64,000 bases of DNA from Bacteroidia bacterium (GTDB lineage Bacteria; Bacteroidota; Bacteroidia; UKL13-3). Positions 57,913 to 61,905 of the stretch are shown here, one piece after another. Position 1 is the first letter of the stretch, and each line of letters starts with the position of its first letter. A model generated the notes under the pieces. The model ran no database searches. It was not told the origin of the DNA and worked only from the letters and a program-made list of their open reading frames with translations. Made by a program: the position numbers and the translations under genes. Location: the NCBI GenBank assembly GCA_014376805.1, contig JACMQU010000012.1:1-64000 (forward strand), written 5' to 3'.

Positions 57913-57913
57913 A

Positions 57914-57929
57914 TACCTATGTGTAGGTA
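57914..57929. promoter_or_regulatory. Candidate NarL-type 7-2-7 operator
   Basis: TACCTAT (57914-57920), two bases, then GTAGGTA (57923-57929), the inverse complement of TACCTAC. Both heptamers fit the NarL/LuxR-type consensus TACYYMT (second with one mismatch) in the 7-2-7 spacing. The centre is about 42 bases before the predicted start from the nearby -7 element AATCTTTG (57953-57960). Confidence 0.4.
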
Positions 57930-57990
57930 TGGTTTTATGAATTGATTAGTTTAATCTTTGTGATATTATAAACCCTAAACCCAACTTCTT

Positions 57991-58548
57991 ATGAAAACAA
58001 TTTCCTTCTTTACATGTGCATCACTTTTAATATTATCATTAGCTTTTGTTTCTTTTAAGGGAGCCACTCATGAATCGCAATTGGCTTTAAAGATAGATTC
58101 GTTAGAAAACCTTTTAAAAGCACAAGAAATGGTATCAGATGGAAAGTGCTTTAAAAATAAAGAAAGATGGCTGAAACTTCAAGGCCCATCAAAATCATTT
58201 TTTAGCGATGTAATAGGATTAGCAACCGCCGAGCAACATGCCTCAAATTTTAGAATTGCTTCGCAAATCTCTATCCCCGTTGCCTGGGAATTTGAGCTAA
58301 AACACTTAGCTGAACTATTAAATGGTGCTGATGGTGTAAGATTTTACGCAGCCATGAATGATACAATTTATGACCCAAATTATACACTTTCCTTAGTAGC
58401 AGTGAGATATAAAATAGACAATTATGGTTTTAAAAATGATATAACTACTTCCAAAATTTATAATTTTTCAAAAATCTGTCCAACTGAGTGTGATCATGCT
58501 CAAAGCACCTTAAACGTAAGTGGTTTTTTAGGCAGAGAATGCAATTAA
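57991..58548 (+). CDS. Small secreted protein of unknown function
   Basis: A 185-residue protein with a signal peptide (MKTISFFTCASLLILSLAF, cleaved near SFKGA). The mature part has a short coiled segment (LALKIDSLENLLKAQEM), an even spread of charged residues and several cysteines (GKCF, ICPTECDH, RECN) that could form disulfides in the periplasm or outside. No family recognised. It opens a four-gene unit with a seven-helix protein, a histidine kinase and a response regulator, so it may be the sensed or secreted partner. That role is inference. Confidence 0.75.
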   Translation: MKTISFFTCASLLILSLAFVSFKGATHESQLALKIDSLENLLKAQEMVSDGKCFKNKERWLKLQGPSKSFFSDVIGLATAEQHASNFRIASQISIPVAWEFELKHLAELLNGADGVRFYAAMNDTIYDPNYTLSLVAVRYKIDNYGFKNDITTSKIYNFSKICPTECDHAQSTLNVSGFLGRECN

Positions 58549-58552
58549 TCTA

Positions 58553-59203
58553 ATGATGGGGATTTCCTTAATAAATTTATCGGAGATTAGTGTTTTAATG
58601 CCTGTTATCGCTGGTTTCATTTATTACAAAAACCTGCCCCGATCCTTCTTTATTTTACTGTGTTTTTTTTGTTGCAGTATATTTGTTGAGTTGGGTTCAG
58701 AACTAATGGCCCATATTTACCATAATACGATGCCGTTATTACATGCCTTTACGGTAATTGAATTTATAATCTTTACAAGTGTTTTTTATAGCTATTTTGA
58801 ACGCAATTTAAGAGTCAGGGTATTTTTAATTATTAGCATATTGTTGCTTGTTTTTTTTGAATTGTCAGAGATTTTTTTATTTAAAGGTTTGTGGAGTTTT
58901 AATGCAGCCACCCGTTATTATGAAAGTGCGGTTTTGGTGCTATTGGCATTAATGTTTTATTATAAGTTTTTTAAAGAAAGTGTTGAACCCATAACTTTGC
59001 AACAGCCTATGTTCTGGTTTTCCACGGCTATTTTTGTTTATTTTTCTTTAAATCAATTTTTCTTTATGCTCATAAACTATTTTAAAACACATGATGTTTA
59101 CATAGTAGCCACCGGAATAAAAATTCATGCTGTAATCAATATTTTTGCCAACTTGCTTTTTGCTATATCATTCAGATGTTACCGAACAATGAAAACATAT
59201 TAA
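58553..59203 (+). CDS. Seven-helix membrane protein, candidate sensor
   Basis: A 216-residue protein almost entirely made of hydrophobic helices (about seven). No enzymatic motif is visible. Its end overlaps the start of the histidine kinase gene by 28 bases, so they are co-translated; the kinase has only one short membrane helix and no sensory domain, which makes this the likely signal-receiving partner. The start is five bases after the stop of the secreted protein gene. Confidence 0.8.
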   Translation: MMGISLINLSEISVLMPVIAGFIYYKNLPRSFFILLCFFCCSIFVELGSELMAHIYHNTMPLLHAFTVIEFIIFTSVFYSYFERNLRVRVFLIISILLLVFFELSEIFLFKGLWSFNAATRYYESAVLVLLALMFYYKFFKESVEPITLQQPMFWFSTAIFVYFSLNQFFFMLINYFKTHDVYIVATGIKIHAVINIFANLLFAISFRCYRTMKTY

Positions 59204-59967
59204 TTATTTATGTGGCTGGTTCGGTTTTTACCTTTGTTCTGGTCGCATTCATTATAATTTATGTTTACCTGCATCAGGCCAAAGTAAACAGATTTAATAT
59301 TCACATCAGAGAGCAGGAACTTAAAAAACAACAGGAGTTATTTATTGCACTGCAAAATGGCGAGGAAAAGGAACGCAAACGATTAGCCGAAGAACTGCAT
59401 GATGGCATAGGTGCCCGCTTATCGGGGTTAAACATGAGCATTGAATACCTTAAAATGAATCCGGATCAGCATCAAGCCTTACTGGAAAAGATTTCAACAG
59501 GCATGAATGAGACCATTAATGAACTGCGTGAAATTTCACAGAACTTACAACCCTCATTTCTTCTGTCAAAAGGGCTGGAAACAGCTTTAGCTGAATTGAT
59601 TTCACATTTAAATAACAAAGAGTGTTGTTATTATCAGCTATTTGTTGAGACCAATTGGGAAGTTTTTAATACTCATATTCAGATCAACATTTATCGGATT
59701 ATATCTGAATTGTTGCATAATGTTAAAAAGCACGCTGCTGCATCGCAGGCCTCTGCTCAGGTAATTGGCGGCGACGGAATGGTTCAGATAATAGTAGAAG
59801 ACAATGGAACAGGGTTTGCTAATAAAGAGACCGGAATGGGCATAGGTTTACTAAATATAAAGAACAGAGTAGATTTGTGCAAGGGTAAACTGTTAATTGA
59901 TACATCTGTTAAAGGAACTGTTATTATTGTTGAATTACCTGTAAATAATTTTACCGGAGAGTGCTGA
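59176..59967 (+). CDS. Sensor histidine kinase, NarL-partner (HisKA_3) type
   Basis: A 263-residue kinase with one N-terminal transmembrane helix (residues 8-32), a coiled coil (REQELKKQQELFIALQN), a HisKA_3 dimerisation domain with the phosphorylated histidine in RKRLAEELHDGIGARLSGL, and a HATPase domain (ELLHNVKKHAAASQ, VEDNGTGF, GMGIGLLNIKNRV). It lacks any periplasmic or PAS sensor. The response regulator lies 61 bases downstream. The TM protein encoded upstream is the probable sensor. Confidence 0.94.
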   Translation: MLPNNENILIIYVAGSVFTFVLVAFIIIYVYLHQAKVNRFNIHIREQELKKQQELFIALQNGEEKERKRLAEELHDGIGARLSGLNMSIEYLKMNPDQHQALLEKISTGMNETINELREISQNLQPSFLLSKGLETALAELISHLNNKECCYYQLFVETNWEVFNTHIQINIYRIISELLHNVKKHAAASQASAQVIGGDGMVQIIVEDNGTGFANKETGMGIGLLNIKNRVDLCKGKLLIDTSVKGTVIIVELPVNNFTGEC

Positions 59968-60028
59968 TCACTAAATATTGCTAATGAATTTAAACATTCG
60001 TAAAATGGGTTCAAACACATAAAATTAG

Positions 60029-60646
60029 ATGAAAGAAAGTATTAACATATACCTGGCAGATGATCATCAGATTGTTATTGACGGTTTGATTCTGTTGTTA
60101 AAAAATGAGCCTGATATTTTCATCACAGGTTATGCTAATGATGGACTAACTGCTCTTAAAGAGATACAGAATATTAAACCTGATATAGCATTAATTGATT
60201 TGAGAATGCCCGGTAAAGACGGCTTACAAATAATACAGAGTTTAAGAATTAAATTGCCCGTTAAGTTTATCATTCTTTCCATGCACCACGATAAAAGATT
60301 TATTACAGATGCAAAAAATTATGGAGCTGATGCTTACCTGTTCAAAAATACCGGACGAGTAGAATTACTGGAAACCATAAGGAAAGTAATGGATGGGAAG
60401 AAGTGTTTTCCTGCTTCAGAGACACAACCGGATCAAAATAAAAAGATATTTTTAACTCCCCGGGAAATGGATGTATTTAAACTTGTTATTAATGGATATA
60501 CAACTTTTCAGATTGCAGATAAACTATCACTAAGCGAGTACACAATTGATACACACCGTAAAAGCATTGGCAGAAAAACAGGTGCAAGAAACGTAATTGC
60601 TTTGTTAAAATATGCAATTGCAAATAATGTTAGTTTTGATGAATAA
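60029..60646 (+). CDS. Response regulator, NarL/LuxR type
   Basis: A 205-residue regulator. The receiver domain has the acidic pair YLADDHQIVIDG, the phosphorylated aspartate in DIALIDLRMPGKDG and the lysine in AYLFKNTGRVEL. The LuxR-type helix-turn-helix follows (LTPREMDVFKLVINGYTTFQIADKLSLSEYTIDTHRKSI). It is the cognate partner of the kinase and may bind the inverted heptamers ahead of the operon. Confidence 0.95.
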   Translation: MKESINIYLADDHQIVIDGLILLLKNEPDIFITGYANDGLTALKEIQNIKPDIALIDLRMPGKDGLQIIQSLRIKLPVKFIILSMHHDKRFITDAKNYGADAYLFKNTGRVELLETIRKVMDGKKCFPASETQPDQNKKIFLTPREMDVFKLVINGYTTFQIADKLSLSEYTIDTHRKSIGRKTGARNVIALLKYAIANNVSFDE

Positions 60647-60708: not shown

Positions 60709-61905
60709 TTAAACATTTTCCTTTTGAAACAAAGCAGGTACCGTTTTTAAAATAATTATGATATCATTCCAGAACGAATAGTTTTTAGCATATTCATTAT
60801 CAAGCTCCATTCGTTCTGCTTCACTCATCGGACCTCCCTTACCACGTTTGGTTACTTGCCATAAACCGGTTATTCCTGCCGGTGCAAGAAAGCGTTGTGC
60901 AAACTGATCGGTCGTTAATTTTTCTGCTTCATATAAAGGCAAAGGTCTGTTACCTACAATGCTCATGTCTCCTTTAAACACGTTAAATAATTGCGGTAAT
61001 TCATCGATGCTGGTATTCCGCATTATTTTTCCGAATCGGGTAATGCGCGGATCATTTTCAATCTTGATGAATTTAGAACCTTCTTTAATCCGTTTTACCT
61101 CGCCAAAAACTTTTTCACAGATCATATCACCATCCATATATAGTTTTGATCTGCACGTTACATTTGCAGCAGTGCATTCCGCACAGAGATAATTTTTATA
61201 ATCTTCAATACTTTCAGTTTCCTGGGTAGCGTTGTACTGATTTAAGTGTTTTAAATTCTTGAGCATAGCATCAGCACCCTGGCGCATAGATCTGAATTTA
61301 TAGAAATCAAATAAGGTATAGCCTGACCCAACTCTTTTGGCCGCATAGAAAACAGGGCCTTTGGATTCAAACATGATGATGATGGCAAATAGTAAAAAGA
61401 AAGGTGATAAAAAAAGTAAAGCAAAACAGGCTACAGTTAAATCGAAAATCCTTTTAGCAATCGGAATAGAGTACTTTGGGAAAATTGCTTTTGAATCTAA
61501 TATGGATTTATGATATCGCGGGGGGTTAGCAATAAGGTAAAGGGTTCTGGCGAGAAAAATTTCACGGTTCACAGGCCTTTCAAATATGTCGGCAAACTGT
61601 TCAATTAAAGCAATGTTTCGGTTTGCATCTGTTATTCTATCAACGATTAAACAAAAGGGTACATTAGCCGTTTTAGGAACATTCTTGCAATTCTTGCGCA
61701 AGGTAATGCCATTGGCCCCTAATAAATCAGAATATGTTATGATGAGTTTCACTGCATCATTTATATTGGTCCATTGTATAAACTGAAAAATATTATCAAA
61801 GTGAAAGATCTCAAAATCTTCCCTGAACAAATGCGAAAATTCCACAATCGAATCGGCATCAGTAGAAATAAAAGCGACTCTGTGCTTATTTAAGTTTTGC
61901 TCCAT
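60709..61905 (-). CDS. Sugar-phosphate transferase (phosphoglycosyltransferase) with N-terminal pseudo-receiver domain
   Basis: A 398-residue protein. Residues 1-130 resemble a receiver domain, but the aspartate site reads LIITYSDLLGANG (Tyr where Asp is expected in the ungapped alignment) and the lysine site DIFERPVN, so phosphorylation is unlikely. From about residue 150 comes the monotopic PglC/WbaP-type domain: RIFDLTVACFALLFLSPFFLLF membrane hairpin, FYKFRSMR, DPRITRFGKIMRNTSIDELPQLFNVFKGDMSIVGNRP. This transfers a sugar phosphate to undecaprenyl phosphate to start a surface polysaccharide. A four-cysteine insertion (CAECTAANVTC then DGDMIC) lies between the motifs. Confidence 0.9.
   Translation of the reverse strand: MEQNLNKHRVAFISTDADSIVEFSHLFREDFEIFHFDNIFQFIQWTNINDAVKLIITYSDLLGANGITLRKNCKNVPKTANVPFCLIVDRITDANRNIALIEQFADIFERPVNREIFLARTLYLIANPPRYHKSILDSKAIFPKYSIPIAKRIFDLTVACFALLFLSPFFLLFAIIIMFESKGPVFYAAKRVGSGYTLFDFYKFRSMRQGADAMLKNLKHLNQYNATQETESIEDYKNYLCAECTAANVTCRSKLYMDGDMICEKVFGEVKRIKEGSKFIKIENDPRITRFGKIMRNTSIDELPQLFNVFKGDMSIVGNRPLPLYEAEKLTTDQFAQRFLAPAGITGLWQVTKRGKGGPMSEAERMELDNEYAKNYSFWNDIIIILKTVPALFQKENV

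Follow-up and report, generated by a model that had tools for sequence, protein, structure and literature searches.

Within the 64,000-nucleotide stretch of Bacteroidia DNA analyzed here (the window), four adjacent open reading frames on the plus strand encode, in order, an exported-looking protein (SEC), a membrane protein (MEM), a histidine kinase (HK) and a response regulator (RR), and an inverted repeat resembling a NarL site lies upstream of the first of them (Table 1). The locus raises the question of how a kinase that lacks a sensor domain is informed of a signal, and whether the regulator acts on its own operon through the repeat, as had been proposed in a preliminary description of this DNA.

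Table 1. Predicted features of the unit (positions in the window) and of a further gene preceded by the operator (positions in the loci named)
Feature	Position	Strand	Description
Operator (predicted RR site)	57913..57930	+	ATACCTA and TAGGTAT around TGTG, ATACCTAtgtgTAGGTAT; NarL-like 7-2-7, core 6-4-6
-7 box	57953..57960	+	AATCTTTG; Bacteroidota TAnnTTTG with one mismatch; predicted +1 near 57965
SEC	57991..58548	+	185 aa, exported-looking, conserved CPxxC (CPTEC), no known family
MEM	58553..59203	+	216 aa, membrane protein with seven predicted helices; predicted to serve as a separate sensor/receptor; no known family
HK	59176..59967	+	263 aa, one N-terminal TM helix, HisKA_3 and HATPase_c, without sensor domain
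RR	60029..60646	+	205 aa, receiver and GerE (LuxR/NarL) DNA-binding regulator
GAF-PAS gene	L057:3548-5224	+	Preceded by the same operator
GAF-PAS gene	L064:1695-3374	-	Preceded by the same operator
GAF-PAS gene	L073:1766-3451	-	Preceded by the same operator

Gene order and its conservation

The unit is flanked on its 5′ side by a divergent gene for a giant PKD-type protein, across a 465-base gap, and on its 3′ side by a convergent sugar transferase gene; the four genes thus stand alone. Comparison of 44 loci collected through MEM (L091 and L141 being near-duplicates) with local profiles indicated that HK adjoins MEM in 41, that HK and RR are both present in 40, and that a SEC homologue precedes MEM in 34. 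The kinase has no nearby copy in the remaining three (L099, L104 and L158). The contiguity of the four genes noted earlier is therefore a conserved gene order across many Bacteroidia, and co-conservation of MEM with the kinase, which the preliminary description had chosen as a test of its proposal, is found in 41 of the 44 loci. In most loci the end of the MEM frame overlaps the start of HK; this overlap, typically 13–43 bases and 28 nt in the window, points to coupled production of the two proteins.

MEM genes also occur in tandem, in two or three copies, at L158, G245:C1:2383813-2386101, G332:C67 and G325:C151. The convergent sugar transferase (60709-61905, minus strand; Bac_transf, 3e-58) carries an extra N-terminal region of ~150 residues that looks by eye like a degenerate receiver, and its gene adjoins those of a receiver-only protein and a sigma-54 activator.

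The kinase and the regulator

Both HK (HisKA_3, 2e-13; HATPase_c, 2e-9) and RR (Response_reg, 1e-19; GerE, 2e-13) match Pfam models above the cut-off, and together they are a two-component system that pairs a HisKA_3 (HPK7-type) kinase with a NarL/FixJ-type regulator. These domains bear out the sensorless kinase and the LuxR-type regulator of the preliminary description. HK and RR themselves are ordinary parts.

The candidate operator and its link to the regulator

Read as a NarL site, the palindrome consists of the heptamers TACCTAT and GTAGGTA separated by GT, and agrees with the consensus TACYYMT-N2-AKRRGTA at 13 of 14 positions. The inverted pair with two-base spacing reported earlier is thus present, and the candidate site has the features of a NarL-type operator, namely the heptamers, the 2-bp spacing and a place beside the core promoter. 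The window contains 10 matches to this consensus with up to two mismatches, not above chance (8.3 expected). Consensus alone is therefore insufficient, and the significance of the palindrome derives from its conservation in related promoters. The form TACC[ACT]A-N4-T[AGT]GGTA is found within 200 nt upstream of 10 of 10 related units, where shuffled sequences predict 0.0027. The operators of these relatives are ATACCCAttatTGGGTAT (L013), TACCTAatatTAGGTA (L014), two copies of TACCAAgaaaTAGGTA (L015), TACCTAgaaaTAGGTA (L019), TACCTAaaaaTAGGTA (L020), ATACCCAtaagTGGGTAT (L030/L061), ATACCCAttttTGGGTAT (L033/L059), TACCAAgaaaTTGGTA (L141) and TACCTAtagaTAGGTA (L143). Their two arms change together, including a TACCAA/TTGGTA pair in L141 and L091, and the heptamers thus passed the conservation test set for them, being present in all 10 promoters and showing compensatory arm changes. 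We relied on this strict form alone, since a looser motif (any 8-base centre with a -7 box) is near background outside genomes G005 and G008. Upstream of SEC in units outside the clade of operator-bearing regulators (L103, L146 and L148 among them), other short palindromes are seen, such as GGTAtttaTACC or CCCTA/TAGGG repeats, which are perhaps the own operators of those clades.

The palindrome keeps a fixed distance from the promoter. Comparison of 96 site-orientations placed an exact TAnnTTTG box at an offset of 22 bases after the 16-base palindrome six times and at 23 bases sixteen times, with a total of 5 occurrences at the other 68 offsets; the offset in the window is 23. As the sigma-A TAnnTTTG box of F. 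psychrophilum spans -12 to -5 (PMC9723704), the palindromes would be centred at -42.5 to -43.5, and that of the window at about -43.5 relative to the predicted +1, close to the -42 given in the preliminary description. NarL works as an activator at ogt, through a 7-2-7 site at -44.5, and at yeaR, through a 7-2-7 site beside the -35 element (PMC7419079). By analogy with the site at -44.5, the position of the operator favours activation over repression.

In a tree of the 44 regulators, comparison with the upstream regions placed all operator-bearing units in one clade (98% SH-aLRT): the operator accompanies 11 of 11 units inside this clade and 0 of 33 outside it. Genomes G005, G008 and G016 each carry a second unit that lies outside the clade and is without the operator. 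Because the operator-bearing regulators form a single clade, the association counts as one evolutionary change; as judged from these comparisons, the link between RR and operator is strong. The recognition helix TIDTHRKSI is common to the clade, and the signature [TV]HR[KR] within it differs from the [GN][HY]R of most other regulators; we take it to resemble the NarL contact helix, TVKVHVK.

Two observations support control of the operon by its own regulator: the operator tracks the clade of RR itself, and its spacing to the -7 box is constant. The preliminary description had predicted positive autoregulation; autoregulation is the part that stands, while its sign is suggested by the position of the site. 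Repressors too can bind a site at about -43, and another LuxR/NarL-type regulator might recognize the palindrome, so that the unit would be a target rather than a positive autoregulator. Phased sites, one each, in G015, G006, G068 and G069, all without an operator-clade module, agree with this, as do four unphased palindromes in G007. However, presence of the operator follows the encoded RR clade and not the genome, and within the genus phased sites occur in 6 of 7 genomes with an operator-clade module compared to 2 of 12 without (p ∼ 0.006, calculated by hand and ignoring relatedness). We consider repression, or binding by another regulator, unlikely but the most serious of the alternatives.

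Sites beyond the unit promoter

The host genome has 5 copies of the 18-mer ATACCYA-N4-TRGGTAT, G005 has 14, G008 has 11 and G010 has 6, compared to 0 for the reversed control. Palindromes with a phased -7 box number 30 in 64 genomes (control 0), 26 of them in genomes with an operator-clade unit, and in G008 the 16-mer of the module operator is identical to five other sites. Besides the module promoter, the host sites lead to a lipoprotein, an outer-membrane-like protein, a short lipoprotein and an IS-rich stretch; no clear common function was evident among these targets, and restriction or anti-phage-like genes were not seen among them.

Restriction or anti-phage-like genes (SIR2-like, Mrr, NACHT-Mrr, PDC-S18-like, PDC-S61-like and PLD-like) lie behind several of the sites in G005, G008 and G010; this enrichment is tentative, since the targets scanned first were picked by eye. 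Many such genes share a stereotyped promoter consisting of ATACCCAnnnnTGGGTAT, 22–23 bases that often end in ggattggg, and then TATGTTTG, which is repeated before several consecutive genes of one island. This promoter is found at L054:3521-10044, L050, L052, L055, L060, L062, L063, L067 and L074 in these three genomes. In all three sister genomes the operator also precedes a gene, divergent from tyrS, for a GAF-PAS protein that matches HisKA weakly; this gene may belong to the core targets of the regulator.

MEM, a candidate receptor

An AlphaFold model of MEM (mean pLDDT 78, pTM 0.78) contains seven long membrane helices, as the preliminary description had predicted, and the loop charges read from the sequence place the N-terminus outside and the C-terminus inside. 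MEM has no match in Pfam (E≤1) or NCBIfam, its relatives likewise have none in Pfam, and its profile matched no solved structure below E 0.2. In structure comparisons GPCRs and rhodopsins, whose bundles also have seven helices, rank at the top, but their scores lie within the range of unrelated helical bundles: superposition onto the class T GPCR 7xp6 gives a VIA-align Z of 12.0 with an rmsd of 3.8 for 205 residues, compared to a Z of ∼13 attained by unrelated bundles, and the best Foldseek E is 0.1. Within helix 7, alignment A1 has an invariant His192 and a nearly invariant Asn196. The same helix lacks a conserved lysine, so MEM is not a microbial rhodopsin or other retinal protein.

SEC, the CPxxC protein

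SEC has no match in Pfam (E≤1) or NCBIfam, and its profile found nothing below E 0.2 among solved structures; its structure model is poor (pLDDT 44, four sequences). The protein represents a conserved domain of some 100 residues, and 32 of the 34 homologues that precede MEM have a C-terminal CPxxC motif. The window protein has a signal-like N-terminus without a lipobox cysteine. Of the homologues, eight are lipoprotein-like and one carries a different signal or anchor; the other 25 lack a signal peptide, as do most relatives outside the window's clade. The description of SEC as secreted thus fits the clade of the window and does not extend to the family, and the roles of a simple extracellular ligand or a periplasmic sensor partner are ill-suited to it, because most relatives are without a signal peptide. 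In G016, a divergent lipoprotein gene beside the unit (L139:4445-5023:-) encodes a protein with a CPxxC-type end (CPPMC) and the look of a second SEC homologue.

From the constant association of MEM and SEC with a kinase devoid of a sensor domain, we infer that MEM is a separate receptor and SEC its partner. The presence of a gene for a small cysteine protein beside those for a kinase, a regulator and a membrane protein of many helices is also reminiscent of peptide signalling of the Agr/Com kind, in which SEC would be a secreted signal precursor, MEM would export or process it and HK would be its receptor, and SEC is indeed exported or lipoprotein-like in the window's clade. However, the domain with its fixed CPxxC is not a short variable peptide, 25 of its 34 homologues are without a signal peptide, HK contains a single TM helix and lacks a receptor domain, and MEM matches no processing protein in Pfam. 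This makes peptide signalling improbable, more so than control by another regulator.

Proposed mechanism

We favour, with a probability of roughly 0.7, a two-component system with a split seven-helix sensor in which RR activates its own operon through the palindrome. MEM, probably with SEC, would detect a signal and switch HK through contacts with the single membrane helix of the kinase. HK would then phosphorylate RR, dimers of which would bind TACCNA-N4-TNGGTA centred at about -43.5, beside the -7 box, and would activate the operon and, in some relatives, other genes. That the operon is real and the palindrome a chance match to a degenerate consensus, as the near-expected number of NarL-like matches in the window might suggest, can be dismissed given the 10/10 conservation with compensatory changes, the promoter phasing and the tracking of the RR clade.

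Relation to known systems

The closest parallels are partial. Like the unit, the hexose phosphate sensing system UhpC-UhpB-UhpA of E. coli combines a separate membrane receptor, a HisKA_3 kinase and a LuxR-type regulator, and HK matches the UhpB model over the kinase part. UhpC is a 12-helix transporter homologue. Unlike this MFS protein, MEM has seven predicted helices and matches no transporter; the kinases differ too, with many TM helices in UhpB and one in HK, and UhpABC lacks a counterpart of SEC. The unit is thus not a UhpABC system, as its predicted receptor is not, by Pfam match or helix number, a transporter homologue. The 7TMR-DISM proteins (PF07695) are, like MEM, seven-helix bacterial signalling membrane proteins and are common in the same genomes, but they are large multidomain proteins whereas MEM stands alone. 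MEM was rejected as a member of that family: it has no Pfam match, and hhalign against local members gave a probability of 3.4%, compared to 1.2% for the reversed control. The unit would therefore work like UhpABC or a 7TMR system, yet it belongs to neither. NarL/NarP share with it a GerE-type regulator, inverted TACC heptamers and a site at about -44 beside the core promoter (PMC7419079); the unit differs in its Bacteroidota promoter (TAnnTTTG), in its sensor and in a core better written as TACCNA-N4-TNGGTA.

No such module or motif was found in a literature search, which misses most subscription papers. Together with the empty Pfam and NCBIfam searches for SEC and MEM, this agrees with the suggestion that the module is possibly undescribed. 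What appears to be new is the predicted split seven-helix sensor with its CPxxC partner, neither of which has a family in Pfam or NCBIfam. A broader and more tentative reading, which we regard as doubtful, is that MEM founds a new family of GPCR-like free-standing receptors that relay their signal to a distinct kinase, SEC being the ligand or a redox or metal partner, and that in some lineages RR controls dispersed restriction and anti-phage genes through one stereotyped promoter.

Distribution and significance

When MEM alone served as the query, 10 of 60 relatives contained it, and the neighbourhoods read showed the same four-gene order; a search of related loci with a closer MEM alignment gave three loci. 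With a profile of 13 MEM sequences, MEM was detected in 23 of 64 genomes of the family. The same profile detected it in 86 of the 395 genomes sampled from the class (55 of 196 genera), a single genome holding as many as seven copies. The cultured Spirosoma oryzicola RHs26 also carries the order, on a plasmid (L206, NZ_CP089539.1) where the genes are annotated as hypothetical, hypothetical, histidine kinase and response regulator. After the unit, this plasmid carries genes annotated as tail fiber proteins.

Some one-fifth of the genomes sampled from the class thus hold at least one copy, often several, and two of the four genes of the unit are “hypothetical protein” in public annotation. Sites in front of defence-like genes raise the possibility that some of these bacteria turn such genes on in response to a sensed signal, and the operator would provide a ready reporter for finding the signal of the unit.
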